From: Nymphaea colorata
Lineage: Eukaryota; Streptophyta; Magnoliopsida; Nymphaeales; Nymphaeaceae
Direction of reading: 5' to 3'
NCBI RefSeq assembly: GCF_008831285.2
Contig: NC_045143.1
Span: 18,627,655-18,691,654 of the forward strand
Length of the DNA stretch: 64,000 bases
Of this stretch, positions 562-63,289 are shown piece by piece. The notes beneath the pieces were generated by a model. It did not search any database, was not told the DNA's origin, and saw nothing but the letters and a program-made list of their open reading frames with translations. Every line of letters starts with the position of its first letter. Position 1 is the stretch's first letter. The position numbers and the translations under genes were made by a program.

Positions 562-1020
562 CTGCAATAAGTGAAGTATTTTATTGCATCCTTTTTGTGT
601 TAATATTTATTTGAGTCATTATTTAGTTTCAATAATAAATGAGGTAGTTTTTATTTACATTTTATTGTGTAGGTAAATGAATAATGATATGTAACTATTT
701 TCAATAAAAATAGAGGCAAAAATTGATTGTGTTACATGGAAAGAATACAAAACTGCTTGTTTTAGGTAAGTAACATTATTTTTTTGGTTTTGAAGTTTAT
801 AGATGCATTGGTTTGCTACATTTTGGGTTGTTATATTTGTATGTCCACTTTGTGCTCATACCTACGTCACTGTAATAGAAATAAAACACCCTACCTATTT
901 AGGACAGACTACGTTTTGTGCTAATGACATAAGTAATTATTAAAATGTGTCGTAGAACCTGTCACGCTTTACGTTCATGATGTGGGCAATTGTATACGAC
1001 GTATGTTCAACTGTAGCTGG
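562..1020. other. AT-rich sequence, no gene recognised
   Basis: Follows the hAT relic and may be its 3' non-coding end. No coding frame or clear terminal inverted repeat was seen. Confidence 0.4.
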
Positions 1021-4000
1021 TCGGGCCGATGCCCAAGCCTAGCCTCAATCCTCTTTCCCTAACCTCTCTCTTCTTTCTCTAACCTCCAATGGTTTGTGTC
1101 AATGGTTTTCCAATACAGCCCATCAACACAAAGTGGGATGTCGAGGAAAACCCTGACGATGGCCTTTGTGATGTACAGGGAAACTGTTACGTCTGCCTTT
1201 GTAGAAGCCCAAAATAGCGACCGTAACCTTTCAAGATCTCATGATGACTATTCAAAGTGGCCCAATAATGACCTTACAAAATTTCCTACCCTACTGGACA
1301 CAACCCCAGCTGAAATCCCAAGGGTAAGGATACAAGATAGAGCTTCCCATAGCATACAGAAATTATCTCATGCTCACTCAACATACATCATCCATGCATC
1401 TACAAACCAGTTGTCCATTCATTCATAGGATGCACAAATCATCACCAGCCCTAGGTGGTCTCGTAGAGTGGGTTCGTGTCCTTAGCTCTCTAGCTTTGGA
1501 GGTAACCCGACATCTACCCGCCCTTAGGTAAGGCTGAAGCAAAGGAGCACCCACCCTCGCATCTATAGGGTGATAAGGGTGCTTACCTTGCTGGAGCAAG
1601 TCAGCATACACCATGGCTGAAGGCCGAACGTTGGCAATCAGCACTTCATCTTCATCAAGGGCAGGAACTCGACGTCTCCTTGCTGATTTGAGTCTTCCTT
1701 GATAACATATTAGCAACAAGTCACTGCAATGAATTTCAGCGACTATTAGGGAGAAGGGAAGGCACTTAGCTGGATATGTGTTAACCCCTAGTGCGCTTGT
1801 TGTGTTAGGGGGAAGCAATCGCTGACAAGGTGACAGGGAACACCCTTCTTCTCCCTCGGGTCAGCCTAGCTCACAGCTGCTATGATTGTTTCTTCCTCTC
1901 GACGATGGCTAGCTACATACAGAAAACTGAGAGTTACTGCTCAGTATAGATGAAAACAGTTTATTTCCAATGAGTTAGAGTTCGGCACTGTGAAATATGT
2001 AATCCCCTGTTGATAGACAAATCCGAGAGGGAGGCAAGCACCGACCAGCCCAGCGTAAGCTATGCCTTCTAACTCAGATGAGCAAGCACGAACAGGGATA
2101 GTTCAGGCTCCGCACTCACGAACCAGTTCTTCACCTCTGTCATGTACAGTCCTCCAACCAAAGCACAGCAGTTACCGAAACTTATAAGGAATAAATGCAG
2201 GTAATCTCAAGAGGAGAAGCATCACCAGAAGATGAATGAAACCCCCGAAGTAGACGGAAATGGGGTGGAGCAAGCTTCGAATAACACCAAAGCGGGCGTG
2301 CTGCTGGGCAGCTTTACGCTCCTAGCTCCTCCTTCGTCTCGTCACACTCAGATCAAGAACCAACAAGAACAGAGCATAAAAGACATGTAATAGAACATGA
2401 ATCAACTTGAGAGGGCAGAGATTGTCACCAGATTTGGGTGAGAACCCAAACTAATCAACAGCCTTGGGAAGCATGCGAGAATCCCTCCCGCTGGACTATT
2501 TTGTCCTCACAAGCTTGGTCCGCACTCTAAAATTCACCAAAAATCAATCGTTGCTCAGAATGGGCTGAAAATTTGTCTATATCACCTTGGAATAGTATGA
2601 ATGGACGTCCCAAGTTTCACAGCAATCTGAGATGTCTACAAGAAGGTCATTCGTCTGGAAGGTGCAAAACTGTTACAGGCGTTGGCACAAAATTGGGTTC
2701 TGTTGAAGACAGGGCTGCCGGCTACACTTCTCAGGACTTATCCACCTTTCGAAAATCGCCAAAAATCAACCGCTGCTCAGAATGGACTGAAAATTGGTCT
2801 GTAGCACCTTGGAATAGTTATGAATGGATGTTCCAAAGATGAGCTTCAGCTGAGCTCCCTGTGTGAGACTCGTTGAGCATGAAGGTGCCAAACTGTCGCA
2901 GGCTCCAGTTCTGTTTAGGGATAGGCAAAAAACAAGGGAGTTGTCTGCGATTCACAGGACCAGGCGATCTTCCAAAAATCACCACGGATCACTCCGATCT
3001 CCAAAAATCCTAAAAATCGGTCTGCAAGCTGCTGAGACACCAAGGTAGACACCAAAAGACCAGGTCGAAATATGATTTCCACAAGTGACTCGCACAATCG
3101 TCGGGTTCAACAATGCAGTGGAGGATCTCGTAGATGAACGTCCAGCAATGGCCACCAGTGCCATTCCTCTGGTTGTTCGACTGTAGAACTCATGAAGGCA
3201 CCAAATCCGGCCAACGGCTCACGGAGATGATGATTCCGGCAAGTTGTTCAAGAGGAGTCAATGAAGCTGCCAATTGGTAACCAGACTCCTCACGGGAGAA
3301 ATGAACTCAAAGTTTCATTGATCAAAAAGCTTAGGGTTACTGTACATCATTTAGCTTATATAGCATAAGTGTCTCGAGACGTTTCTGAATCGTCCTGGTA
3401 CAACTACTAAAGCAAAACTGAGACAAACAAAAACAACTGTACAAAGTATTGGTTTGACCGAATCGGTCAACCTAGAAGACCCCGAACTGAGTCTGCAAGT
3501 TAGTCTGAGTCACCGCGGGGCAGTCCTGCCTGGGTCCAAACCCACTTCGCCTAGACTCGATCTAGACGACCTTCAACTCTGCTTGTCTTGGTTCCCTCGT
3601 CTGTCTCAGTCCTAAACTCTTGAATATCTTCTATTCTCGTCCTACGTTTGTCTGTACCGCCTGTCTGTCCTAATCCTGTCCTGAACGCCTGGACATCCTC
3701 TGTTCCTGTCCAATCTGTGGAAGTGTTGTTTGTTCTTCCGAGTCTGGACTGTTCTTGTCCAGAACAAAGTTCCATGGCCTCTTGTGTTGTGTCCTCAGAA
3801 TCTCCAGCGTGCTGAGTCAAGTGTGTCAAGGCTGCATGGCTCGGTTGGAGTGCACCTATCTCGACCTGAGTGAGGGCGATAACCTCACCTCGCTCAAAGT
3901 CTCCTATGCCCGCAACACCATCTGCCGCTGCTTGTGCATTCAGCTGTCGTCGGCCGTGCATTGTCTCGCTCGGCCTTGGACGCCCCTTGCACTCGACGCT

Positions 4001-4260
4001 TGCTGCCATTGCTGTCACGCCTCGCTGGACAGCCTCCCTTGCGCTCGGTTGTCCTTCCTCGCGCGTCTCGTCCAATCTGCAAGAAACATTAGCCTCACAA
4101 TAAAAGTATAGGGTTCGTCAGCGGGCTCTTTCCCCGAGCAACATTGGCACCCAACACTCTCGGCATCACTCTCGGCCGCGGCTAGGGTGATCTCAGTATT
4201 CGTCGGCAGTCTCGAAGGTTGGCCCGTAACAAAAACCCTCTCCGAGGATGAGCGTTTGCC
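1021..4260 (-). repeat. GC-richer repeat-like block, possibly LTR-retrotransposon remains
   Basis: This block is richer in G and C than its surroundings. Read on the minus strand it has LTR-like features: a TATA-like gctatataagc near 3355-3365 followed by an AATGAAA-type signal, and a second stretch near 1965 with an AATAAA-type signal. I found no matching direct LTR pair, no primer-binding site I can name and no pol domain. A minus-strand frame at 3551-4075 (174 codons, polar, with repeated EDxQxFRT-like stretches) is open but matches no family I know. A non-autonomous LTR element (LARD-like) is the best guess; a decayed host sequence is possible. Confidence 0.35.
2531..2842. repeat. Imperfect direct repeat, period about 221 bp
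   Basis: The stretch starting near 2535 (CCAAAAATCAATCG, then GCTCAGAATGG) recurs near 2756 with scattered substitutions over about 85 bp. A weaker third echo (TCCAAAAATC) lies near 2970. This supports a repeat origin for the block. Confidence 0.7.
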
Positions 4261-4261
4261 C

Positions 4262-4555
4262 TCTATTGGATGTGTTTAGAGGTTCATGGTAAATATTTTT
4301 TTTTAAACAAGTGGTGCAAACCATGAAGCCAGCCATCGAAGCAGGCTAGCAACCCGTTGAGACTCCAATGAGCAATTTTCATTCCGGAATTCTTGTTACA
4401 CCCCTCGGTGTGGGACAAGAATTTCAGAATGAAATTTCTGGAATCAGTCTCCAACAGGCAGATTTTCCATCCCAAGTTTGTTGGAAGTGAGATGAAATCT
4501 AAAATTTCAATCTTCTTTCCACTTAAATAGTTCATTTCCTGTGGAGCAAATGCCC
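4262..4555. mobile_element. Small foldback/MITE-like element
   Basis: Two arms of about 50 bp (4354-4403 and 4409-4458) are imperfect reverse complements around a loop of a few bases. Both carry an ATTTCATTC...AATTCTTGT core. Flanking sequence to about 4262 and 4555 may belong to the element: the right edge on the minus strand reads GGGGCATTTGCTCC, typical of plant MITE termini. No clean target duplication was found, so the limits are approximate. Confidence 0.45.
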
Positions 4556-4559
4556 CTTA

Positions 4560-7390
4560 ATGAGTTACCAAGGAGAGAAAAATGAGCAAAATGGCATCAC
4601 CTTCCAAGTGGACCTTAGTCCAAGCGGTGTAAAACGGGGTTAGGACTTAGGATTCAAGGAGTAGGTCACATAATAAATAATGAATCCGATGGGCGCCGCC
4701 AGAAAGTTCTGCCTAAGTGACACTAATTATAAAATTGTAAACTTTTAAGGACACCAATATGTAAACCAAAAATCCTGAAATATCAATATGAAAATCAGCA
4801 TTTTATGTTGGTTTGTATATACAATTGCCCATGCATCCATGCCTGCATCCACCCTTGGTGATTCCTCCAATACCTGCTGGAAACCTGGAGAGAATAGGTG
4901 TGGTATAGGATTTCCACCCCAGCGGAAGATTGCTTCTTTGCATATTTATTAGTTAAAGGCTCCTCACTTTGGATCCATGAAGAAAAATCGAGTGGATATG
5001 GATAATAGATGTTTTGTACTTTGTATGAAGCAGGAAAAGAATGCATTCCACTTCCTATTTACATGTGCATTGGAGATTTATTGTTAATAAGTTGAACTGA
5101 AGGCACATCCCTAACTCTAGATTGTTGGTAGGGAGCTAGGTGTAATGTGTGGTTCAGTTGCAGCTTTAGATGCGGCTGGCAAGAATGAAATAAACTTTTA
5201 ATAACTTCACGTTCAAGAATGAAGGAAACTTTCAAATGTTTACAATGCAGGCCTCAAGCTACACTCAACCAGTCTTTGAGCCATAAACATCTATTTACAA
5301 TAGTAAAACTACAATACAACAAAAATCATAATTGTACATGAATATATGGGCCACAGATCTAGACTGCATTGCCAAGTCTCAGCTACATTTATGATGTATT
5401 GAGACCACCTGAAAAGTAAGAAATTTGAAGTCCTGATTATACAACTATACAGAGTAGGTAGTCCCCTGGTTTGGTTATGTTAAATGAGTTCGTATATGTC
5501 TAGGACTAACTGAAAATAGTCATCATGTCTTAGGTACAACAAACAAGCTTAAGCTAACTCGACATGAACATGATTCACATAAGCATATTAAATTCATTTA
5601 GTTTTTAACCTTGATATTCTGCAAGTCACAGTCATAGGACGTTCCTACTAATTGTTTATTCATGTCACTTCATTAGTTTAGATATTATCTTGCTATAGTA
5701 GTAACTCCCATGGAATATCAAATCATCAGTGTTACCAGTTCCTACCATCCCAGGTATAGGTGGCACATTTAAACTAAGCTCTCAGGGTGGGACGTTGGAA
5801 CCTATTGTGCTGTAAGCCTCAACTAGACCAACACCGAACATCCCGTGCATTTAACTCTGGCCTTTCGACCTTACATTGAACTCTGACTGTACAACCACAC
5901 AGTAAGTCTGATCTTACGACCATACATTACCTCAGAGTTGTGCCTTCCACAGGGGTAACAAGTGTATTTTTAAAAAATGTATGTAGTTAGTACAAAATAT
6001 ATCATCTTCAATAACTTAAATCAAATTAATAAATTTAAGCAACTTTGACTCTCGCCATACATTTAATAAATGTTAATTTTACCCATTGTCGTTACAATTC
6101 AACATTCCTTTGCTGCCCACTCAGCTGAATGTTTGAACTCCATGTAGCAGATTTCATTATCATCCATAGCTTGTGACATATGAGATTCATTATAATAATG
6201 GCACTCAATAGTTCCCAAATGCTGATGGAGAATACTAACGTTTACCAAATGCACAAGCTGAAATAAATATATAAGGTAACATATCCTCATACTATGGTAA
6301 CATGAAGTTTTTCTTTACAATTTCTAATGTAGCACTAAATATTCACTAATTCCAAAAATGAATAAATATGACAATTGATGCCAAGTTGCCTAAGAGCAAC
6401 GATTTAAGAAATCTAAAGAGTGTTCTGGAATGTGGATGCATACACATAAATCAACCATAAAAATACAAACTATATCACACATGTTCAATTAAGTACCTGA
6501 AATAAAGTCTATGTAACACCTCATTAGGTAAAAGCCCACCACACAAGACTTGAATGACCCAGTAGATTCTTCCAAACTATGAAGTTGGAAGTAGGGCAAC
6601 TAAGTTGAACTCATCAATTAATGGATGGTCTGTAAAATCTGCCCATTTAATTGCTGAATTTTAGTTCATATTAGCCTAATCTAACCCATATGAAACTTAA
6701 TGAGCTATGTTAATCTAAACCCTAAGTGTCTAACCTAATTATACAGAGTTCTTTAAATTAAGTAAAATCCCCCAAGTTAATGAATGCAAAGACTGAAACT
6801 AGATGTTTGGAAGGCATGCAACATTCCCAACCCATTCTCGTAATAGAAATCAGAAACTTGGCGCCTCACTTTCGGCTATTTGGAAATGCTGGAAGTGCCT
6901 TTCATATTATTGAGAAACAAAAAAATATACTTACAGTAGTGACTTAATCAAAGACAAAATAAACAAATGATAAGAAGACTAAAAACCACACTCGACTATT
7001 CACTACCATGAGAGGAAACATTAACAGCCTCTAACCACCACGTCTATTCAAGTTTAGGGTAGCAAAGGAGTGACATATGGGCTGATGTAGGCAGTCGCAT
7101 GCATCAGCCCCTCAATGTTTATTTATTTTCACGAAATATTTGTTCTATCATATATATGAGTGCCCCTTCAGATATGAAAATCTATAAATGAGTGCTTTCC
7201 TAGAAAAATTTTCTGGCTCCGCTACTGGGATGAGGCAGACCACAGCGGTGAAAAACAATAAACCCACTTCAAGGGGAACATCAAAATTTTTTAAAGGGCA
7301 AAAATCCTCCTGGTCGGTCCTGTCCTCTTAATCCTCCTTTCCCATCTCCTCTTTCTACTCGCCTCCCTTTCTCTCTCTCACTCACTCACG
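4560..7390. other. AT-rich intergenic DNA, no gene recognised
   Basis: No frame with recognisable protein similarity. A segment at 5750-5960 is slightly GC-richer. A stretch at 7080-7240 ends in TCTGGCTCCGC, a string common at the ends of small plant repeats. Neither could be classified. Confidence 0.4.
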
Positions 7391-39915: not shown

Positions 39916-42900
39916 TCCAAATCCTTAGGTGCTAGACCTATAAGAAATCATTTTGGCTGTTCATATTTGTAAGTAGTGTCACAAAAAATGCGTTTTTTTG
40001 TGAAAAAGCGACGAATGAAATTGCCGTTTAAAACTTTTAAAAAACGTTTTTTTTAAGTTAAAAACATTTTTTCTTTGTTTCATTTTTTTCATGTTTTTTT
40101 TAATGCCAAACAGTTTTTTTTTTCATTTTCTATTTTTTATTTGTTGCAAGTCTACTTATTTTTTGATGTTTGTGTAATTATTTTCTCACTTATTTTATTT
40201 TTCCCTCATTTTTAGCTTTTTAAAATTTGTAAAAGTTTACCATATTTTTCCTGCATTCCCCCCTTTTTTTCAAGCTTGCCCTATTATACCCGAGGAAAAC
40301 CTCGCCTTTTAAAATTCCAAAACGTTATTTGTAACTATGTTTCTAAGATGGAGGGTTAAGAGAAAAATGAGATAGCTCTATCTTGGAAAGATTAGCAACC
40401 AAGATGATTCTTTATAGGTCTAGCTATCTGGTAAGAAATTTAATGTAGTAAATTCACATTTACGTGGTGTCCAATGTCCATCTAATTCTTTTAATGATAC
40501 TTTTAGGAATATAATTTTTCAATGTTATCAATATTATAATCTCTTTTGTGGTTTTAAGGCCGTAAATTTCTAACTGCAATTAGCTTCTTGGTTCTAATAT
40601 GTAAAACAGAGCTGCTTGAAATCCCTGGGGAAAAGCTGGATGCTGTGAGGAAGATATGCAAATTTGAAGTCATTCCGTACTCAATGACACTTGGATATTC
40701 TTACTGGGGTGCTGGTTGGTCTTACACCTTTGAAAGCTGTTCCTTTATGCTTATCTTTCAAATCTATATGATTGAAATTTTATGTGCAACTGATGGTAGA
40801 TAAGTGATGTTGATGTTGTTCCCTTTCTTTGCAGTGGTGCTAGGTAAGTGATGCTTGAATTATTTTTAGTTTTATTTACTTGTTTATTATCTTTTTGGGG
40901 TAGGCAAGCTGTGACAGGCTTCTATCAGACCACACTGAAACATCCCAGGTGCTGAACTCTTGACCTTCTTCAACTTGAAGGTCTTCAGTTCAACTCCTTA
41001 GCTAGGTGAATGGAGCTGCTGTTGGCGCTGCTTGATGAATAATACATATAAATTCTTATGTTTAAAATGGAAAATAAACTCTTGAACTCTTGAAGTTATC
41101 AGTTATCACTTACCACTGTATCTGCTTCAGATTAGACAAACTATTTCCACATGCATCGGCACACAACAAGTGTGTTTTTTTGGGGGAGAGGGAGGTGTTT
41201 CTTTTGGTGTGGGATAGGGGTTGTGGGGGTTGGTGGTGGAGGGAGATTTCGTATGGTGTACTTGTGGAGGTATGTATAACCTGCACCCTAGCAGGAGGGT
41301 GTGTAGTTGGTGCATGTGTGAGTATGCCTTGATGCACATATGTTTCACCTGTATGTGTGCACATACAGTTGTGCATACAGTGGATTCAAGTTCTCTCTGA
41401 AGCTTCATCTCTTTTTGAAAACCCTCTAATCAATGATTTTTGTCTTTGATGCTAGATCAAATACTAAAACAGATATTACCTCCTGGAGTAGAAGTTCCTT
41501 CTTCTTTTGAAACAATAGGTAATATCTTGATCTATTATTAGTACTTTATTCTTCTTTTGAATCCATTTTTGAGAGTAGAAGATGTTACATTCTGGACATG
41601 TACTTGACTTGTTTCTATGAACAATTTATTATTCGTTTCAGGCCATATTGCACATCTAAACATTCCTGGTGAACTTCTTCCTTTCAAAGAGATCATTGCA
41701 AAAGTTATCTATGATGTACGTGAAGAGCCTTCATGATAATGCATGAACTTTTTGTGTTCCTGGGAAGGTCTGTGGTTGCTTCATTTCAACAATAAATAAT
41801 CTCATGCATGCACATTGGCACGTAATGATAAATTACCTGCTGGATATAACCTTTGCATTTATTTTTATGCTTTGGCTTAAACATCTATTTTTTCTTATCA
41901 GAGATAATAGATTTCAATACTCCATGCAGTTACATTGTACATCCAGACACTCTAAAAGGACCTTAGGATGTATAATTAACTAAGTTGTCAAAATTGGAGA
42001 AATGGTATGCCCCAAGTTTTATTGTGCCTTAGTGTTCCTGGCCTTAAAACCATCTGATTGAATGATTGGATGTTCGAAGGACACGTGATCTACGTAGTTT
42101 ATATAACAAATAACAAGTTTTGAGTTACTTCATTTCAATGCATAACAAGGAAAATCATGTGCATAAAAAATTCAATAGATTACAATGAATGAAAACCTAT
42201 GTCACACGGATACGGGTACGGGTATCCTATGGATACGGGTACGGGTACGGGGACACGACATTTTCAAAATTTTAGGATACGCGGATACGGCGAATATTAT
42301 ATTCAAAAAAATTAAAAATGATAATAAAGAAAGTCTCAAACAAAACATTGTTCATCACCAATCTCAAAAGTGATAACTACTAAGACATAAGCAAGAAAGT
42401 CTCAAAGAAAGTTACAAAACATTATTCATCAATCATCACAAAACATTGTTCATCATCATTCTAGTCATCATGAACAACAGCTAAGGCAAAATCCCCAAAT
42501 CGGTTATACACCCAAAACGGCAAAATCCCCAAATCCCAAAATCAAACAAAAACAAGAAAACATCGCACATAGCATTGAAGAATATGATTCTAAACCGTCC
42601 AATCTTCAAACCAAAACATCCCCAAATCAGATTTTAATACCCAATGTAAAAAATCCCCAAATAAAAGTTGAAACCCTAACTTCTATTATCGAAAATAATC
42701 GACAAAACACCTACCTGCCTGTCGCTGGCTGCCGCCGGACGCCACCGGAAGTCGCCGTCGATCGCCGGAGCTCGCCGTCGCCCGCCATTGGCTTACTGTG
42801 CTGCCAGCCTGCTGCGTTAGCCGTGGAGGGTAAACGAAGGTCGAGCGTCGAGGGTAGATGTTAGTGCGTAAAACAAAACGCGGGTTAAAAAATCAGTTAT

Positions 42901-45900
42901 ACAAGTGGTTTGGATCGGGTCTGACCCAGACCCGATCCAAAACGTATCCAGCCGTATCGCCGTGTCGGGATCCCCGTGTCCGCGTGTCGACACCGGTACT
43001 CGACCCAGTCTGCCGTATCCGTGTGACATAGATGAAAACTTTAAGGGTCAGAAATTCATGATTTAATTTCTTAAAAATATGATCTAAAACATGATCTTAA
43101 TACAAAGTTCTGTTCAATGGTTCAGTCTATCCATATGTGTAAAATGATTGTGCTTTAGGCTGGGGCAAACAAAGCATGCCAATTGCCAACATTTCAGGGA
43201 CATCATTCAGTTCTCTTATACAAGTATTCGTACACACACAAAATACAACCACTCACATACGCATGTTAGGGCCGGGGCCAAAAATTGGGGTTCTTGATAA
43301 ATCTTAAACTCAAGAAAGGAAAAACAATTTACAAAGATAGGGAGGAAAATAAGACAGAGATGAAAGAGAAGGATTTGGACTTTTATTCATTGGATGCCCT
43401 TTTGAATACAGTTCTACCTATAGGACTTTAAGAATGTTTAAATAATGGCCTAATGGGTTATCTAGTAAACGTTGCTTCATAGGTGGTGTTCTGACCCAAT
43501 CCAGTTGTCTGACCTTTCAGTTTCCTCTACAGAGTTGTATCAGATTCCTCCTTCCTTCAAATGGCATCTTGTCTACATGGTGCAAACTGCAGAAATGCTG
43601 CTCTAAACTCTGAACCTCTTCCCATGTGGCCGACTGTTCATCATCATCACTCCAAAGTCCAAACTACTAGCCACCTTGTTTCCCATGTGCCATTTGGTTT
43701 CCTGCAGTGTTCATGGATAGGATTGAGAACCAAGAACTGGTCATGGATGCTGTAAAGATGACACTGGATTACTTGAAAGGATCTAGGAAGATTTTTTTTG
43801 CTTTTGTTTTTTTTTTTACAAGAAAAGAAGTCAAAATCATGATATACTTCTTCTTGTGGGATATTCAGATGAGGATTGGGTTGAAGATCCTGATGAATGA
43901 AGTATTAGGGAATGGTTATTGCACCATCAAGTACATAAGCAGAATATCATACTACGGCTTCTGTTATGTCTGAATAGTCATGGATCAAATACCTCTAGGA
44001 TGAACTGGAAGATGTTTCGTGAAAACTTATTCTTTTTTTGTGACTGAAATTAAAATTTTCCTGAATTCTATACAATGGAAAAATAAAGCATATTGTGATA
44101 AATCAACATATTACCAGGAAAAAGATTGAAGATACTAAAAAGGCATGTTGGGCTGAAAATAGAATTGCAAATCCTTTCATCAAAGGATTGATATTGAGGA
44201 AGTCTTTGTTTCTTAAGGTCAGGTTAAGCATAATTCAGAAGTATTTGCAACTTGAAGGAGGCTTTTCAAAGGTGTTATTTGGTGTTTTAATGTACCAGGT
44301 CTGGATCTGATATGAACTCAGATCCAGTCATTTTATAAAGAGCCTTTTAGACATTTGGAGTCCCAACGAGTTAATAAGCCTCATTAAGTTAGAGGATTCA
44401 CTCATGGAGAAGAGGCTGCTAGTGCTGCATGACAGAGAATACCCTGGTTTTCCCAATGTTTTTGAAGTTACCATGGTTCTCTTGATCTCTTTCTTTCAAT
44501 TAAGATGTTTGCATATTGCATAGGATATTAACAGTTATCCAATAATGTTTGCTACTAGCAGCTTGTAGTGTGGATTTGTCTGGCTATATCCGATGTCATT
44601 GTGTGTCAATGATTTCTTTTTTCTCTTCATTCTGTTTCAGTCTCTTGTAGACACACATGCAAGATGTGTTTATATATATAGCGACTTATTGCTTTATTCT
44701 CTTTGAATGAGGACAATAGGCATAATTCTCTCTGATATATGACTCATGACATGCTTCTCCTCAAATAGAGACAATAGGGGTTTCTCTCTTTCCCTCACGC
44801 ACATGTATAGTTCCTGTCTGTCTGTTCTATGTTCTTCTATACTCTATGATGTTTATTTATTCTGGATTCATTTTATCTGTTATTGTAAGCAGAAAAACCA
44901 GCCGAGAATCAGAACTGTTGTGAATAAAGTTGGAACCATTACAAATGAGTTCAGAGTGCCAAAGTTTGAAATCTTAGCAGGAACAGATGACTTGGTTACA
45001 GAAATAAAGCAGTATGGGGCCCGATTCAAGCTGGATTATGGCTCTGTTTATTGGAACTCAAGGCTGGAGCATGAACATGTACGCCTCATTTCAAAATTTT
45101 CCCCTGGAGAAACCATCTGTGATATGTTTGCTGGAGTTGGGCCCTTTGCTATCCCTGCTGCACAAAAAGGGTGTATTGTATATGCTAATGACTTAAACCC
45201 TACCAGTGTAGATTACCTGCAAATGAATGCTGTTCTGAATCAAGTGGGTTCACATATTCATGTGTATAACATGGATGCGAGAATTTTCATCCGCCATTTA
45301 GTGTCTCCTGCTTACAAAGAAAATGCAGACAAGGATGCTGTTGCTGGTAGTGCTGATGGAGCAAGTGCCCAGGAAACCATTGGAGAATATTCTGACCGTC
45401 AAGGTGCACATTTTTTATTCAAAATTTAGATGCTCTGTTCTATGGCAGTTCTTTAGTTCCTTAAATTTTTGTTGGCAGGAGCTGTGAAAGGAGCATCATC
45501 AAATGGTAATTGTAGAGATGACAAGAATGAGGTGGAAACGAATCTCCATAGATCAGGTAACTTTAACGGCTGCAAGCTGTTAGGTCTTAACAGTCGACCA
45601 TATTGCAGAAATTGTTCTTTTCAATTTGATTTGAATAAATATGCTTTCCAAATAATGTTAGCTAAATTTTCTGATATCATAATTAGAAACAGTGTTAAGC
45701 TTGCAAGTACAAGATCTTTAAAGATCCAAATACCTCTAAACAAACTTTCCCAGTCGATTTAACACATCATTATTGCTTAAATTCTCTTTGGCAGAAGATT
45801 CAGATGTGAGAACTGCTTTTGGGTCTGGAAAGAGAAGAAGGAAGGAAGCTCCTAAGAAAAAGATGGAAGGATTTAAAGTTCCTAGTTCTAAACCCTGGGA

Positions 45901-48900
45901 ACATATTGATCATATCGTAATGAATTTACCAGCCTCTGCTCTGCAGTTTCTAGGTGGGGTCCAGTTTGCTTAGTTGGTATGCATCTAGTTTATGTTTAGT
46001 CAACTTATGATTTAACAGTCTTCCATATGAATTTCTTTAATCTGGTAGTCGTCATATTTACAACATGATTCATGATCATCTTTTTCCTAACTCACTGCAT
46101 TCATGATTAAATCAATTTGAATTCAAAAACTTTTCTTTTGCAACTTTTGACTTCAATTATGTGCTTCTATTTTTTTGCCATTTTATAAAGATCTGGATTT
46201 GGGTCCTTAATGCTTTGTATGGCTCACAGGGATTAGAGTTCTTTTTTTGCCAAACAATACTGTAGTGATTATGTCTTTTCACAAAATTGTTACACACACA
46301 CACACATATCTTCATGTTAACTTCCTACACAACTCTGATGCTCTAGAACTTTGACCCTATGATTTCCACATTTTGGCGCTTTTCCTATGTGTACAGGCTG
46401 AGCCAGAGAATTTTCTTCTAGAAGGCCATTAGTACTTTTTACAAATTCTAGGGGAGACTGTGGGCCTATTTTCAAAAAATTTATATGACGAGATTTAATT
46501 TTAGAAATCCAGGGAGAGCCAGGTACCCTCTGGCTCTGCCCCTTATTGCCCTTTATTGCATATGCTCAAGTCAAATTGAAATTCATTGTTGTGATGCACT
46601 GCATACTTGTAATTTTGCCTTTGATGTCTCTTAAATAGATGTCTTCAACGGGCTCTTTCAAAGGAGGTACTGGACTGGATTATTGCCATGGGTTCATTGT
46701 TACTGTTTCTTGCGCTCAAGTCAAACTGAAGAATCAATTTTATCTGTAAGTAGAAACCTACTTTTTGGCTCAATCACATTTTGGCAATGCCTCTGCCTAA
46801 TTTTCAGATATTCATAATATGTTTTATGTAGCTATATGTAATATTGAACCATCTTCTCTCGTACTTTTTTTCAAAAAGACAACATTGGTGTATGAACACG
46901 ACCGATATTGGTTACATCACACATTTTACAGCATTGGTTGAACCTACTCGAATTTTACTCTTCATTCCAGAAGCTACTTACAAAAGATTTTGGGCCAAGG
47001 AAGCTCTTGCCTCCATTTCTCCTACAAGTTCACTAACTTTGTAAGCCCTAGACAATATACCACCTTTTCTGGAAGTTCTACAAAATAGTTAGTTACTAGT
47101 TACGAAAGATTTAGAATTTTTAGATATAAATGTTTTGTTTTCATTTATAGACATGGTAGACTTTCACTTAAAACTATAACTTGCGCTATTTTTTATTATT
47201 CTAAAAGTCCAAATGTGTTTAGATGTTACGATATTCTAAATGGTAAATTGTATGCATTTAATCTTTCTAAAGAATGAACTTGAAGAATGTAAACCTCATT
47301 ATTGTGTGGATTATTCTTGATGGAAAATATGATGAAGACAAGGAAATAGAAATAGTATTAATTCTCAAAGCATAGAACCTATGTCACATAGGTACGGGTA
47401 CGGGTGCCGGTGCTGGTATGGGTACAGACCATTTTTAAAAAACTTGGGTACGGGGGTGCGGCCGTACACACACATGCACATATACATATATATGTAAAAA
47501 ATTTCAAACAAAATAACCTATTCGCACATATGTATATCAAAAATTACAAACAGAACAACATATTCATAAGGATATGCAATATTCTTGAAGTTTATGCCTT
47601 CAAGAGCATACAAGAAATCCACACACAAAAATTGTATCAAAAGATTCAAAACATTCAAAATTTAAAGAACTAGCATTATTCTGCTGTATTTTGCATAATG
47701 ACATCTTCAAGCTCAAGAAGAAATTCAAATACAAAAATGTGTATTCTTAAAAATGAGACAACAAAGATAATAAAAGAAGGAAGCACGCAATGACAGAGAC
47801 AAAAGAGTAGGCTCTGGTTGAGCTTTACAATTCTAAAATTGGCAGGAGAAAACAAAAGAGGCATGACACGTATTGCATAAGGAAACAGGGAGACACAGAG
47901 ACAGAGAAGGTCGATCGAAAGGTGAGAGAGGCGACTTCAGTGTGAGGGTTTCGAGCAGTAGGAGAGGGAGACGGCGAGTGTGCAGGAGAGTGAGGCAGCG
48001 AGAGAGACGACTTCCGTGTGAGAGTTTCGAGCAGCAGGAGAGGAAGACTGGCTGGAGACAGAAAAACAAATGTTATTGAAAACAACAAAAGGAAAGAAAC
48101 AAGAAGAACACCGTGAACACAGAAAATAGAACAGGGGTGGCCGTCGTCGCTATCGGCGGTCGTCGCCGACGGCGAAGGCAGGGGTGGAGCCGATGAAAAT
48201 GAAAAGAAAAATGAAAAAAGGAATAAAAAAAACCATGACAGTCGCCTCCTACCGTCTGCAGTCGCCGCTGCCGTCGCTCAGTGAGAGGTAAGAACAGACG
48301 AACGAAAACTTTAAGTTTTAAGGGTTTCGTTTCTTTTTGTTTAACGTTAAAATGGTTTTAAAAGTTAAAATCAAATAATCGTTAAAAATAAAAACAGACG
48401 GATTTGGACTCGGTCAAATTTGACCGTGTCTAAAAATGGATGGATACGACCTCCAGTGCGTTGACCGTACCCGGTACTGTCAACGCCGCACCATCAGCAT
48501 ACCCAAGCCCGTACCCGTACCCGTACCGGTACCGGTGTCGTACCGGTACTGGACGGGTACTTCACCTTTACAGGCATACCCGTGTATCATAGCATAGAAC
48601 ATTATGTCAAATAGGAAAAATCAACGGAATCCATTACCTACACCTAGAGAACTAGAAATACTCTTAATCTATGGCACATAGGTACTCCTTTAATGGAGCA
48701 GTACCTGTACCTATGTTGGGAGTGTTGGGTTACTTGGGTATGGGTATGCCCCGGGTACGGTCAACATACACAGGTCTGTGCCTGTCCTTTTTTGGACTCG
48801 GTCAATGTTGACCAAGTCCATTTCTGTCTAAACATTAGGTTTTCTTTGTTGTGTGTTTTTTTTTTAATTTTTAGTATGTTTGTTATTTTCATACTTTGTT

Positions 48901-48976
48901 CATTAGTTTCTTCTTCATAATATATACATTTTGAATCATGAATGTATTGTTTTGTTTGTCAGAATTCTTACTTTTG

Positions 48977-49033
<57 letters not shown>

Positions 49034-52000
49034 ATACGCAAGTTTTTTAAAAATGGTCCGTACCCATACTGGCACCCGCACCCGTACCTATGTGACATAA
49101 CTCTTAATAGAGGTTTTCAACAAAGTGAATCTTGCCATGGACGTACCCAGATGTCTCAGGCAAGTCACTCGAATTTTCAGAGGTCGGATAGAATTAGGAC
49201 CCCACAATAGGTTTTCCCGTTTGAAATGTTTTTGCTGAAGCTATAAAAGTTAATTAAATGTTATTCTTGGTTATTCTGAATCAATAAACTATGAATTCTA
49301 GAATATTTGTGAACAAAATGATGCCATAGGCGAGGAACCTGAAGCCCTAAATATAGCTACAGTGTGGGAAATACAAAACATACCTATTATAGAGAAACAC
49401 AATTGAATGCAAGTAGGTCTATGAGGTTAAAAGCATAGGTGATGGTTTTCTTGAGATAGAAAGCCTCATTAGCTGCAAAAAGATATTCTTAAGAATATGA
49501 TTATGGTGAGACCTTTGCACCCATAGGTAGGATGGCCATTGTCTATCTCTTATATAGTTGCTTCAAGCCTTCAATAAAGAAGGGGAGTATTTTTCCATAT
49601 GGATGTTTAGAATAATGCTGGGCATCAGCCTGGGTACCTGACCAGGCCAGTTGGGTATTGGGCCCGAATGGGCTGGTTTCGGGCATTGAAATCAGCCTTG
49701 ATGGGCTGAGATTTGTTTGGCTGCGCCTGGCCCAACAAGTTAACGGGCTGGGCCCGATAAGTTTTTTTTCCTTTTTTTAATTTTTTTATTTTTTTTTAAC
49801 TTTGTTGTTCAATATTCAAGTGTTTACCAGCTGCCCCCTTTTTATAACAATTTTTTTGGTTGGCGCTCATAAATTTTCGGTACATGACTATTCTTTTACA
49901 CCCTTTTCAAAAAGTTTCTGCTTTCAACAACAGTACATTGTTCAAGAAATCAAGGTTGGCAACTTTGGAAACTTTACTCCTGTATCGATGGTGTTGAGAA
50001 AGGCTTCCCATGGAGAATGATTATAAAAGGGGCTTGGGTTGGGTGCGGTCCAGTGCTCAAGCCCAAAAATGTCCTTGTTTACGTTTTTTTTCTAGAACTC
50101 CTGATGATTCTTAGGGTATTAGTCGAAGCTAAAATCCTACGTGTCACACCTGCGTCTTCTCTCCATCCCTGCGGTTTCTCTTCTAACAGCGAACGCTGAT
50201 CTCTTTGACGATGACAAATGGCGGTAGCTCCCACGATGACCAGTGATATCTCCGACGACCTCCAATGGCAAGGTTTCCACTTTCCAGAAACAACATCATT
50301 ATTTGTCAGGCGGCAAGGTGTCCAGCAATTGCAGCTCACCGTTCGGCAACTTCTCCTATTGGGTGGCTTCTCCCGTCCAGCGACACATGTCCATCGACAC
50401 GTCCGGCAAGGCCATCTTAACCATTAAATTTAGACAAAAGTTTGGGCGTTTTTCATGATTCACTGTTTTTTCATTATTATTAACTTATTTATGCTTTATG
50501 ATGAAATTGTGTTTGCTTAATCTAGTTTCTTATCGATCTTTCTCAGAAATTTATTTATGCTTCATTTTTTCGTAGTATGCATTTTCATTTTCTGAATGTT
50601 CAGACTTCAGAATGTTTTCGGCTGTCCCGTTAAGATATTTTGTTTTTCACTTCTTCGAATTTTCATTTTTGTTATTTGTTTTTGTTCATTTTTGTTATTT
50701 GTTTCTGTTCGAGCCATGCTTTTTCTGTTGAGTTATTCTATCCGAGCATGTTTTTTCTGTTGAGGAATGCTGCTCTTAGTTATATATTAGTTATTAGTTA
50801 TAGAGTAGTTATTAGCTTTCATGTTTGTGCTTGGTGGAGTTTTAATTTTTAAATCTAGCAACCGTGCAGCTACGAAAGTCATGCCAGATGCTGTCTTTTA
50901 GTTATATATAACATGATTATATTATTTTCTTCAATTTTTTGGTTTTTAAGGAATGTTTTCATTGATTAGTTATGCTTAGATAACTTATATTATAACGTTG
51001 TCAAATTTGAAATTTGAAGGCCAAGGAAAAAGGATAGCTAACAAAGGAAAAGGAATGACTGTTGTTTCAAAATGTTCACCAATAGGATTAGGATCTTCTT
51101 CATCTAGTGTGAATAATGTTTCAGATACACCATCAAGTACAAAGTTTGGTTCACATCCAGGTGCAGTTTTTGTAAGTGAGATTCAACCATTATGAAAAGG
51201 AACTGAAGTGGTCACAAATGATGCAAGCATTGGTGGCAGAATGTACGTTTTGTGTATGCATTTTGTAGGGGTTCATTTGTTGGATCTTATAACATCTACT
51301 GAACATATCAGGATGTGGAATTCGAGCATGCCAAAAAATTCATGCTGACAAACATAAAGAGTTCAAGAAGTTACAAGACTGTGCTGACGCAATTCAAAGA
51401 AAGAAATTGAGTGCTACTACAAGTGAAAGATCTACTTCCATGTCTATTAAGGGCATTGATAAGAAAAGAAAGTCATGTGAGAATATTTTAGAGGCATGTT
51501 TCAAGTCACATCAAGGCAAATTTAGATAAATTGGCTTTTAAGTTTTTCTATTCTAACTGTATTCCTTTTAATGTAGCTAGAAATCCCTATTGGAAGAAGT
51601 TTGTGCTTGCAGTTGTAAATGAACCCCTACAAAATGCATACACAGAATGTACATTTCCGCCACCATTGCTTGCGTCTTTTGTGACCACTTCAATTCCTTC
51701 CATAATGGTTGAATCTCACTTAAAAAAACTGCATCTAGATGTGAACCAAACTTTGTACTTGATGGTGTATTTGAAGTATCATTCACACTAGATAAAGAAA
51801 ATCCTAATCCTATTGGTGGACATTTTGAAACAACAGTTCACTTTTCCTTTGTCAGCCATCCTTTTTCCTTGGCCTTCAAATTTCAAAATTGACAATGTTA
51901 TAATGTAAGTTATATAAGCATAATTAATCAGTGAAAACATTCGTAAGAAACCAAAAAATTGAAAAAAATAATATAATCATGTTATATATAATTTAAAAAA

Positions 52001-55000
52001 AGCATCTTGCATGACTTTCTTAGCTGCTCGGTTGCTAGATTTAAAAATTAAAACTCCTAGAAGCACAAACAAGAAAGCCAATAACTAATATATAACTAAT
52101 ATGTAGCTAATATTTGCATTCCTTAACAGAACAAGCATTCTCGGACAGCATAACTCAACTGAAAAGGCATGGCTCAAGCATAAACAAATGACAAAAATGA
52201 ACGGAAAGAAATAACAAAAATAAGATTCGAAGAAATGAAACAAAATATCTTAACGTGACAGCCGAAAACATTCTAAAATCTGAACATTCAGAAAATGAAA
52301 ATACATACTGCAAAAAAATGAAGCATAAATAAATTTCTGAGAAAGATCGATAAGAAACTAGAATAAGCAAACGTAATTTCATCATAAAGCATAATAAGTT
52401 AATAACAACGAAAAAACAGTAAATCGTGAAAAAGCCCCAAAATTTTGTCTAAATTTAATGGTTAAGATGGCCTTACCGGAGGTGTTGATGGACGTGAGCT
52501 GGTGCCAGAAATGAGCTGTTGTTGCTGGATGGGAGCAGTCGCCGGGACAGAAGTCGTTGGATGGTGAGCTACAAATTGCTGGACACCTTGCTGCCTCACA
52601 AATAATGATGCAGTTTTTGGAAAGTGGAAACCTTGCAGCCAGAGGTCGTTGGAGATATCGCCGGTCGTTGTTGGAACTATCATTCTTTATTCCTTGTCTA
52701 AAAGATCATGTTGTTGTCGGAAGGTAAACCACAGGGGCAGAGAGAAGGCACAAGTGTGAGACGCAGGTTTTAGTTTCGACTCCCTAAGAATCATTGGGAG
52801 TTTTAGAAAAAAAAAAAAGGAAGGACATTAACAAGAACATTTTCGGGCTTGATGCACCGTGACCGCACCCAACTCGCCTTTGACCTGAGTTGGGTATGTC
52901 GCGAAAAGTGGAAAAAAATAGGCCAGTGCAGTCAGCCGCACCAGACTCGTCTCTTGCCACGTTGCTGTCGAGTCGGCAGCGCACCTGCACACGCATGACA
53001 GGGGTGCGGGCACTATTTACACGAGTCTGGGTGACTTAGCCAAATAAGGACCTTGGTGCATGGACTGCACCTGACATGGGGTTGCTGTGTCCTCTGCCAG
53101 TCCAAATTGCCCCCACCTTGGCCATGTAAACATGAGTGTGGTGCTGTCTTAGGCTAGTCACTGTGGCATAGCATGCATATTCTCTTTTGTATGTATTTTT
53201 CTATTGGCTTCTCTTCTATGCTTGTTTGATGATTTTCTGTGTGACCTCTAAGTACCTTATGTGGCTTATATTGGACACTGTTTTCATTAAAACTCAAAAA
53301 CTGAATCTGTTTTGATGGGTTTGTTTTAAGCTTATGTTGATTAATGTTGGATCTAATTCACCATGCATCATCTCCAGCTAAGTCTTTTTGAAATGTGCAT
53401 ACACATTACCACCACAGCCCACCACGCACAGTGCCGCACCACCCCACCTCCCTCCCCCCCCCCACCTTTGAAATGTGCATACACATTACCACCATAGCCC
53501 ACCACGCACAGTGCCGCACCACCCAAAAAAAAAAGAAGCTGCCTCTAACGAGGGATCCCACTCAACTGCTTGCTTATAAAAAGTGACCACACAACGTACA
53601 TCTTGAAAATGCAACTTTCTGACATCTAACCTATGTGAAACCGTGAACTGTTCTTTTGTCATCAACACATGCTTATCAACTGCTTTACGGTGGTAACTTT
53701 TGGATGTTTTTAGGTTCTTTCATAAAATTGGTGCATTGGCTTAATATTTTGTGGCTTGTATTCTCAGTGCATAATTGTCATGAATATCATTCTCTGATGT
53801 TTATCAGCAAGGTTTTCTCTGGCATTAATCAGGAAGTTTGTTTTTCTCAGGAAAGTATTGGGAGTGAAAATGATTGGGAAAATTTGACATTCCTATTAAT
53901 TTTCTTGCAGAAACATTGCCGAAAATTCAAAAATGTTACGACAATATTAAATGAAACATAAAAAAGTACATTGAAGAACATTTTTCTGAAGAAAGGGAAA
54001 AAACATGATAGAATGCAATATTTTCATTTTGAAATTCTTTTCCAATTATCATAATTTTTCAATTCTTTTCTTGTCTTTGCTTCCCTCTTTGTATTTTTTT
54101 GAAGAAAATGGTTCTGCATACAGGCATTGTGACATTATGTTTTTTATGGTCATCTGCTCATGTCTGTTCAAGTTTATTCAATTTAAGTGACAAGGTGAGC
54201 ACTATAAAACGCAGTAGGCTTTGCTGGCATTGGAGTCAGAAAATTTGTAAAGGAAGTACTCACTGTCGAATGCCCTAAAAACTTGTATCAGAACTTGAAA
54301 TTTGAGAGGGAGCCAGGCCGATGCCTTTGCTGTTTTTTAATGTTATGGTTGTAGGTCATGTTTATCCAAAAATGAGTGATCATGCAGTAACAATATGGCT
54401 ATTCTGACTTCTAAGACTAATTTGGTCTAAATTATGGTTTGTCTAAGTGGGTCAAAGATTTATCATGTTACAGGCTTGTTTTATTTGTTCACAGTATTCT
54501 TGGGAGTGATCAATATTTCGCTGGTTGTTGACTAGTTCATTCTTTTGGGATCATACCAATGTCTTTTGAATTAATCACGTGGAGATACTTAACTCTTTAT
54601 TTTGCAAGTACCTCATTGCATTTTGTTTATGTTGCACGTAGGATGCTGAAACTGCTTTGGGAGGTCGAATACAAGATCCAATCATCCATAGGGTTAGGGA
54701 TGTGGCCCCAAATAAGGTATAACTAGCATTCCCTGACATTTACATATATCATTGCCTCAAATTTCCTCCTATGTATAAACTTGAGCTTGAAAATTTTGCT
54801 CTTGTTTGCTGTCAAACATTAAGAACTATCAAGAGCTGCAGTGATAACTGTTGTTGGTTATGTTAAGAACTTCATGTTTTGTACTCCCCTTATTCGTTCT
54901 TTGTTTTTCTTCAAGTCAGATTATCAATATTCAAATCGAATGGGCCCTTCCTGGATGTGTTTTATTTATTGTCTTAACAAATATAAATGGGAAGATTGGA

Positions 55001-60859: not shown

Positions 60860-61560
60860 GGTACTAAAGTGCACTGGCTACTTGCCAGTAGGGAGTAGGA
60901 TCAGCTAGAGGCTTCCATTAAGAGCAAAGAGGCAAGCACTAGAGGCCATCAGCTTGGATACAGGCTTGACACCAAGCATGTTCTGGTGTGAAAGGAGATC
61001 AAGCATGTACTTCCTTGACAAACAATTACTTGAGAAGTTCGATGCACCTCAATGCCCAAGAAATAATGTAAAGAACCAAGATCCTTGACAGGAAAACAAG
61101 GCCAGCTTAGAAACAAAAGCATCCACCATAGTAATTGGACAAGGAGATAAACAAGGATATCTAGCCAATCATAGACAAAGAGTGAAGTATCAATTTTCAA
61201 ACTAGTGAACTCAAGAGCCTCAAGGAACATAGTGAGTTTATTAAACCACACCAATGGAGCTTGTTTGAGGCTATAGATGGTTTTGTGAAGGCGGCACACA
61301 TAGTCAGGGCATTGGAGATCAACATAGTCTTTTCGGTTGTGACATATAAACAGCTTCAAACAAATCCCCATGTAGGAAAGCATTGTTGATGTCTACCTGT
61401 TGAGTAGGTATGTTGCAACTAAGATCAATCGTGAGCACAAGATGAATGGAGATATGCTTAACCACAAGACTAAATGTTTCAAAGTCGTCAATACCTGCCT
61501 CCTAAATGAAACTCCAGGCAGCTAAGGTTTTGTAGTATCCAATCGATCCATCAGGTTTCT
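60860..61560 (-). pseudogene. Copia reverse transcriptase (broken), right-hand element
   Basis: Minus strand. VDLQCPDYVCRLHKTIYSLK then QAPLVWFNKLTMFLEALEFT, and further VKDLGSLHYFLGIEVHRTSQ are clear RT blocks. The catalytic YVDD is not readable: the frame shifts immediately after ILVYLLV, losing the two aspartates in this frame. Confidence 0.85.
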
Positions 61561-61599
61561 GTTTAAGTTTATGAATCCATTTGGTGTCAACAAGATTAT

Positions 61600-62880
61600 A
61601 ATCATGAGAAGGGGGAACCAACATCTAGGTTTGGCTTTTAAGGAGAGCATGAAACTCATGGTCCATAACTTGACGCCAAGAGTTGTACTTCACGACTTGA
61701 GAAAAACAGGTAGGCTCAATTTCTTGATCCATTTGAGAAAGAATAGCGGTGGGAATTGGGTGCAAGGACAAAGTATATGTTCTGGGTTCAAGAGAGCTGG
61801 TTTGAGACTGGGTGAACATAGGATGAGTTCAAGAGATTGAGGAAGGCGGTGGTGGGGACTGGGAGAGGGAGGAATAGTAGGTTTGGGTGACATTGAAGGT
61901 GGGGAGTCAATTGGCAGAGGAATACTAGTGGAAGATGGAGGGTTTTATAGAGGAGCTTTAGGGGGTAACATAGTAGTAGGAGTAGGTAGGGGAGTGTGAA
62001 CCTGTAGGGTGGGGTTAGACGAGTATGGAGCTGAACTGGGAGAGGTTGGAGCCGCCTTAAAGGAAAAATCTCCTTTACCAAAAATGACGTTCCTATTCAC
62101 CATGAGTTTTTGAGTTTGCCTGTCATAACACAACATTTGTGCTGATTGTTGCAACCCAAGAAAACACATTTAATGGAGCGAAACTACAGTTTGTGATAAG
62201 GTGGCCGTTTAGATAAGTTATAATATAATGAGTGCATCTTGGCGTTTGGACATGATATTCTATTGATAAAATAAACAGCTATAGAGAACGAAAAATCCCA
62301 AAATCATTGTGGTACACCAGCATCAGCAAGAACTGTGAGCTCACTTTCAACCACATGACAATGTTTCGGTTCCACACATCCATTTTGTTCATGAGTATGT
62401 GGATACAAAACCCTACGTCCAATCCCTTGAGTTTTAAGGTAAGAGTTCAAGGGTCGGTATTCCCTATTCCAATCACTTTAGGAAGACTTAATCTTGGCAT
62501 CAAACTTGTTTTCAACTTGCTTCTTGAAAGACTAAAAAGCTGACAGCACATCAGATTTATTTCTTAAAATAAAAATCCAAATATAGAGAGGAAAAACATC
62601 CACAAAGGTAACATAATATGTATAGAATCAACTGGGGCAGGTCCCCAAACATAAAAAAATATCAAATCAAGAGGTTTTTCCATAGTATTCTGAGACAAAA
62701 CAAAAGGAACAACATGACTCTTTCCTAACTAGCATGCTTCACAAAGCTTATTGGAATGTAGATGATGTACCGACAATCCAAACTTAGACAAAACATGTCT
62801 AACTATTTTTATTGAGGCATGTCCCAAACGACTGTACCGAGTATCTATGGTAGTTCTCTCTCCAACTAGGGATGTAGTAT
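61600..62880 (-). pseudogene. Copia integrase/linker remnants, right-hand element
   Basis: Minus strand. Near 61620-61840 the pre-RT linker (PTCFSQVVKYNSWRQVMDHE, family position just before RT). 61790-62100 is a Pro/Leu-rich linker. 62080-62170 reads CFLGLQQSAQMLCYD and KLMVNRNVIFGKGDFSF, the C-terminal integrase region. 62640-62880 has pieces of pre-integrase. The integrase core is largely unreadable, so much is deleted or scrambled. Confidence 0.65.
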
Positions 62881-63066
62881 GCATGACGTCATGTGTTGCT
62901 AGGTGCGATAAAGCCTGTATTCAATTTTTCCATGAAAGAGAGTTCGCCCGGTCTTGTGATCCTTAAGAACACATTTTTCATAGTGAAACTCAAATATGGC
63001 ATCATTATCTTTAATAATAAGTGGAGCCAAAAGTAAATTCTATGAAATAGATGACACAAATAAATT

Positions 63067-63273
63067 TTAGTTTTTATGGAAATCTGAATTGGAAGCTTTA
63101 AAACAGGAATTTCCAATAGATGAGATGAACAAACCTGTGTCGTTACCTATCTTTAGTTGTTCCTTGCCCTTGTAATGTGAACTCATGGATAAGTTGTTAA
63201 AATCAGTAGTGACATGGTGAGTTGCTCTCGAGTCCGAGTACCATGCATTGTCAAGTTCTTCGAAATTGACCAT
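63067..63273 (-). pseudogene. Copia protease remnant, right-hand element
   Basis: Minus strand. WYSDSRATHHVTTDFNNLS corresponds to the copia protease active site, where D-S-G is expected; Arg replaces the Gly, which would abolish activity. GNDTGLFISSIGNSCFKASN follows as usual. A downstream frame break ends it. Confidence 0.82.
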
Positions 63274-63289
63274 TGCTGTATGGGCTTAT

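Follow-up and report, generated by a model that had tools for sequence, protein, structure and literature searches.

A hAT-derived inverted-repeat foldback in a TRM5-like intron of Nymphaea colorata and the joins from which it was made

A stretch of 64,000 nucleotides (nt) of the Nymphaea colorata genome (NC_045143.1, positions 18,627,655 to 18,691,654; hereafter the window, in whose coordinates all positions are given) contains a large inverted repeat within an intron of a TRM5-like gene, and the locus raises the questions of how two ends of one kind of transposon came to face each other there and whether the hairpin that they could form has a function. The foldback is real. When its left half is aligned to the reverse complement of its right half, a continuous anti-diagonal of about 1.2 kb, for which the first-pass annotation had proposed a dot plot, connects positions 50038-51278 (arm A, + strand) with 52873-51617 (arm B, the inverted copy, − strand). 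The alignment has 1071 matches, 136 mismatches (95 transitions and 41 transversions) and 27 gap openings, corresponding to 88.7% identity over 1,207 ungapped columns, and its score of 1542 compares with 25-38 in 20 two-base-block shuffles; a separate repeat search recovered the pairing as gap-free blocks. In a self-comparison of the window (E 1e-15, low-complexity filter on), the second inverted repeat is 75 nt long and there is no further one. The loop between the arms (51279-51616, + strand) is 338 bp, a correction of the 320 bp given previously. Inverted repeats are a recognised cause of misassembly, and the foldback could be an artefact of assembly or cloning, but this is very improbable because there are no Ns between 46 and 56 kb and the arms are separated by the substitutions and gap openings noted above, unlike the near-identical arms that would be expected of a chimeric foldback. 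Also, an outer segment of 166 bp with a terminal inverted repeat (TIR) is confined to arm B.

The source of the arms is indicated by their relatives in the genome (407.8 Mb in 783 contigs), a search of which listed 46 and 47 matches to the two arms (from the best 40 of 71 and the best 40 of 46 candidates scored) and 43 to the loop, including the window itself (from the best 40 of 128 candidates scored). Among the matches listed, the closest uninverted relative is on contig C4, at 2,948,464-2,952,230 (L074:865-4631), and is 85% identical to arm A over query positions 910-1248, 88% identical to arm B over 1101-1401 and 87% identical to the loop over 14-337, being the next loop match after the window itself. 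This copy, which is frame-broken, is bounded over its span of 865-4631 by TIRs of the CTATGTCACCT type with flanks (ATGAACAT and ATGCACAT) that agree at 7 of 8 positions, a near-8-bp duplication, and on separate open stretches it encodes DUF659 (9.8e-29) and Dimer_Tnp_hAT (3.9e-6). The arm A exon and the loop are collinear with it, as is the loop with other relatives, although most of the C4 leader cannot be aligned with that of the arms. On the strength of these TIRs, the near-8-bp duplication, DUF659 and the hAT dimerisation domain in the relative, the arms are assigned to the hAT superfamily, in agreement with the origin proposed for them earlier. Arm A thus corresponds to the 5' part of such an element (leader and first coding stretch), with its outer end truncated, and the loop is its collinear extension; the head-to-head geometry described in the first-pass annotation, with two 5' ends facing each other, is upheld. 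The contents that it ascribed to the loop are not. The DUF659 match in C4 begins about 32 bp beyond the foldback breakpoint, so that the loop stops before this domain, and neither DUF659 nor Dimer_Tnp_hAT is matched in the foldback itself; for the BED finger, Pfam detects none in the loop open reading frame (ORF) or in the corresponding piece of C4, and pattern scans gave nothing in 24 loci and one unrelated match in 23 loci.

There are at least 1131 first-look DUF659 candidates genome-wide, the best 150 of which were scored and were all above the cut-off; several have open frames of 640-650 amino acids and tied scores, and the candidates represent a large hAT group that may have been active recently. 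Elsewhere in the window, an 835-bp hAT-like element at 42197-43031 has CTATGTCACACGGATACGG as its TIR, and its 8-bp target duplication, ATGAAAAC, is exact.

The first-pass annotation described the arms as complementary from end to end, and this holds for the continuous pairing but not for the limits of the transposon, which runs on to a TIR at 53039 on one side and is cut at 50038 on the other. Arm B extends 166 bp beyond its paired part, as an outer 5' end (52874-53039, − strand) that terminates in the TIR CTAAGTCACCCAGACT; by eye, its end, CTAAGTCACC at 53039, fits the C4 element's own 5' TIR, CTATGTCACCTGAGT. A first guess that placed the right terminus at TAGTGCCCGCACCC (53002-53015), with TTTACACG as the target duplication, was dropped when the C4 element put the TIR at 53039. 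Arm A ends 166 bp short of the TIR, and no counterpart of the outer segment is present anywhere in the window, nor was an exact left TIR found. The 8-bp target duplication would be expected at 53040-53047 (CCAAATAA), and there is no exact left partner for it at 46.0-50.1 kb, where three 8-mers have one mismatch; this is as expected if the partner has been deleted. Both arm A breakpoints have microhomology. The outer junction (50038-50044) is with an unrelated repeat of a different family, which occupies 49627-50044 on the + strand and is interrupted at the start of arm A: relatives of this repeat at four places in the genome (copies L080, L081, L082/L083 and L085/L086) cease to match at 50039-50044, arm A homology begins at 50038, and the overlap is the 7-bp GTTGGGT. 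At the inner junction (51617-51619), the 3-bp overlap AAA is common to the continuation of arm A and to arm B.

With two microhomology-type joins and one TIR missing, the foldback is a rearranged composite or remnant and not a mobile element, and it should be unable to move because it lacks a transposase core and has kept a single TIR, where a hAT element has one at each end. Likewise, it does not appear as a multi-copy mobile unit of the foldback or miniature inverted-repeat transposable element type among the listed arm matches and in 86 loci. By inspection, none of the 46 and 47 listed arm matches away from this locus has an opposite-strand neighbour that would indicate a second foldback of the family, and the 86 loci (290,700 bases, overlapping) contain no other filtered inverted repeat of at least 150 nt except in those covering the present locus. 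A scan of 48 loci with the filter off showed near-palindromes at three places, 148 nt long in L004, 123 nt in L007 and 219 nt in L043, and no kilobase arms.

The whole foldback is enclosed by a TRM5-like intron of 7,896 bp on the + strand (46746-54641), with a GTAAGT donor and an AG acceptor, both in phase 0, the splice sites having been placed by eye, and lies on the coding strand, as the first-pass annotation had located it. The upstream + strand exon matches Pfam TRM5-TYW2_MTfase (4e-25) and, among solved structures, its best PDB match is Trm5b (1.4e-19). The flanking exon pieces, at 46.7 and 54.7 kb, were located with search motifs and joined in phase 0 by eye. In the TRM5 pre-mRNA, arm A, loop and arm B would be present in that order. 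The same intron holds a 1.72-kb element (47379-49100) with TIRs of about 75 nt that are 85% alike (TATGTCACATAGGTACGGG...) and an internal long (TA)n run; no target duplication is clear by eye. A literature search aimed at the locus did not find TRM5 among the matches listed, which is no proof of absence from print.

Two histories account for the arms about equally well, and the duplication of one transposon end that was originally proposed is therefore not established. In one, which is slightly favoured, two sibling hAT copies would have come to lie tail to tail, through two insertions or a local hop of one copy, and one microhomology-joined deletion would have removed both 3' halves to leave the arrangement 5'-loop-5'; a second microhomology rearrangement would then have trimmed arm A at its outer end and fused it with the other repeat. 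We infer this order of events from junction overlaps and truncations that are themselves plain. With such copies, one internal deletion gives the geometry in a single step. In the other, which has a substantial chance of being correct, if short of an even one, a single hAT 5' end underwent local inverted duplication (through aberrant hAT transposition, for instance, or template switching while a gap was repaired) and has long been decaying since; the microhomology at the join is compatible with such a route. The divergence between the arms (Kimura two-parameter (K2P) distance 0.124, or 0.097 without CpG columns) is to be set against that from their relatives. In the shared exon (278 columns), the p-distances are 0.086 for A-B, 0.115 for A-C4 and 0.097 for B-C4 (corrected, 0.093, 0.130 and 0.109), A-B ranks lowest in 1331 of 2000 bootstraps, and it weighs against duplication that the arms are almost as far from each other as from the C4 copy. 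Changes polarised with L006 as outgroup give seven shared derived states for A+B, seven for B+C4 and two for A+C4, and a 6-row exon tree does not separate the branching order of A, B and C4. These comparisons indicate that the three copies diverged almost simultaneously, so that the arms would either be siblings from the same burst or have arisen by a duplication of great age.

A segment of about 208 bp (50702-50909 and its counterpart in arm B) occurs at 18 or more other places in the genome, 16 of 18 of which, when queried with ten hAT ORFs from this genome, gave no match to hAT coding sequence as far as about 1.5 kb away; its tree is star-like, which suggests that it spread in an old burst. 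In this segment, the A-B K2P distance is 0.173 and 9 of the 18 other copies are nearer to arm A than arm B is (nearest 0.136), which is a second difficulty for duplication. Also in favour of siblings, arm A, L003 and L006 have TGA in common at a point where arm B reads TGG and has lost 1 bp. Several results weigh the other way, against separate siblings. None of the 18 copies is nearer to arm B than arm A is. Arms A and B group together, weakly, both in the 208-bp-segment tree with 18 other places (84/74), from which 10 loci that took in the window itself or places represented already, together with copies spanning <75% of the segment, had been excluded, and in a 13-row exon tree (78/76), which left out L052 and L053 (places already used) and copies matching <180 exon-query bases but retained L037 and L067, neighbouring places whose rows are identical. 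Without polarisation, exon sites at which two copies agree against the third are most numerous for A+B (17, compared with 14 for B+C4 and 9 for A+C4), and a topology test disfavours A with C4 (approximately unbiased p value (p-AU) 0.038) while B with C4 is not rejected (p-AU 0.244). Finally, among the scored genome matches the whole leader is common only to A and B, being found elsewhere as fragments of about 90-130 bp, and this favours local duplication of one element. Taken as a whole, the account in which sibling copies were fused and have since decayed as an intronic fossil, with a hairpin that is not under selection, is the best explanation, and we give it an even chance of being right.

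The first-pass annotation had envisaged a very long hairpin, and computation bears this out as a predicted fold. Sense RNA of 50038-52873 has a predicted minimum free energy of −1705.2 kcal/mol, compared with −642 to −673 kcal/mol for five dinucleotide shuffles; 1116 of the 1241 bases of arm A are paired with arm B, and 17 helices reach 21 bp or more, up to a maximum of 50 bp. On transcription of TRM5, the intron could adopt a hairpin structure of about 1.2 kb, which would most likely be lost when the intron is spliced out, with Dicer-like processing to small interfering RNAs (siRNAs) occurring at a low level at most; beyond the predicted fold, both the transcription and any siRNA are presumed. 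Dicing of the intron hairpin is plausible, and the divergence of the arms should be no bar to it because mismatched plant hairpins silence: for one with a 200-bp stem and one mismatch in four, all 33 lines were silenced, 10 strongly and 23 weakly (PMC9263138). That evidence, the strength of the fold and a geometry shared with Mu killer of maize (PMC3440606) are consistent with a silencer of similar kind, in which the TRM5 read-through hairpin is diced and its siRNAs silence related hAT elements, and there are sequences that could be recognised, since 37 of the 1221 21-mers of arm A and 36 of the 1237 of arm B match the C4 copy, while many other loci contain exact 21-mers of arm A that come from the 208-bp segment. 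Such a role is nevertheless unlikely. The C4 copy, the best other match to the arms or loop among the matches listed (85-88%), is itself frame-broken, and none of ten DUF659-rich loci, taken from the 150 scored of 1131 candidates, shares a 21-mer with the arms. On the sense strand, 55 transitions maintain pairing as G-U and 40 abolish it, which is not a significant excess (p = 0.15); this and the ten loci tell against the small-RNA role toward related hAT elements that had been suggested. The analogy with read-through from a host gene is further weakened by the report that read-through sense transcripts built up in those Mu killer plants in which silencing failed, and that they were judged not to be involved in silencing (PMC3440606).

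The arms differ as CG versus TG or CA at 29 of 45 CG sites, a decay that would be expected of methylated, unselected DNA. The locus is most likely an inert or weakly siRNA-producing fossil, a decaying accident with no sign that selection maintains the hairpin. It is conceivable, though improbable, that siRNAs from a TRM5-driven hairpin helped to extinguish the hAT subfamily and left relics that, like C4, have long exact matches; if there was such a hAT "killer" in the TRM5 intron, the absence of intact targets would be the outcome of its success.

Two further features of the window lie outside the foldback. A decayed retrotransposon on the minus strand (60952-63285), which we take to be copia-type, matches RVT_2 at 60952-61392 (1.4e-11) and, below threshold, Pol_BBD at 63070-63285. 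At 53387-53524, a 58-nt unit is present twice, the copies being 98% identical and starting 80 bp apart.

Compared with hAT/DUF659 elements as represented by the C4 copy, the foldback has the same type of TIR and the same exon and loop sequence in the same order, but it differs in lacking the 3' halves, the transposase core and one TIR, in carrying the 5' part twice in opposite directions, and in a leader mostly unlike that of C4. The foldbacks of microRNA (miRNA) genes have arms far shorter than the arms of about 1.2 kb described here. For those derived from transposable elements (TEs), juxtaposed inverted TE copies are proposed as an origin of plant foldbacks and TE-derived miRNA genes (PMC3086885), and the present locus resembles them in having two inverted copies of one TE adjoining in transcribed non-coding sequence. 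It differs from TE-derived miRNA foldbacks in that 44-56 kb contains no Rfam match at the gathering score.

The closest parallel in geometry is maize Mu killer, which is reported to contain about 1.3 kb of mudrA in inverted form together with two TIRA ends (PMC3440606). In both loci, the TIR-side ends of a single DNA transposon face each other, transposase-gene sequence is inverted and host transcription lies alongside; an inverted transposon end with transposase-gene sequence is what is found here. Unlike Mu killer, which belongs to the MuDR family, the foldback is derived from hAT and not Mutator, has one TIR and arms that are about 11% diverged, and is intronic, with no silencing observed and no target sharing a 21-mer in the ten DUF659-rich loci. 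Its geometry is therefore Mu killer-like, without evidence of a Mu killer-like function. Should its RNA be made and diced, the locus would stand as the hAT equivalent of Mu killer, driven by the promoter of a host gene, and could be used to ask how long hairpins outlive their targets. For now, it clearly illustrates how tail-to-tail copies and one microhomology deletion could give rise to an intragenic hairpin of kilobase length, and its specific interest lies in its position in an intron and in the readable history of its joins.

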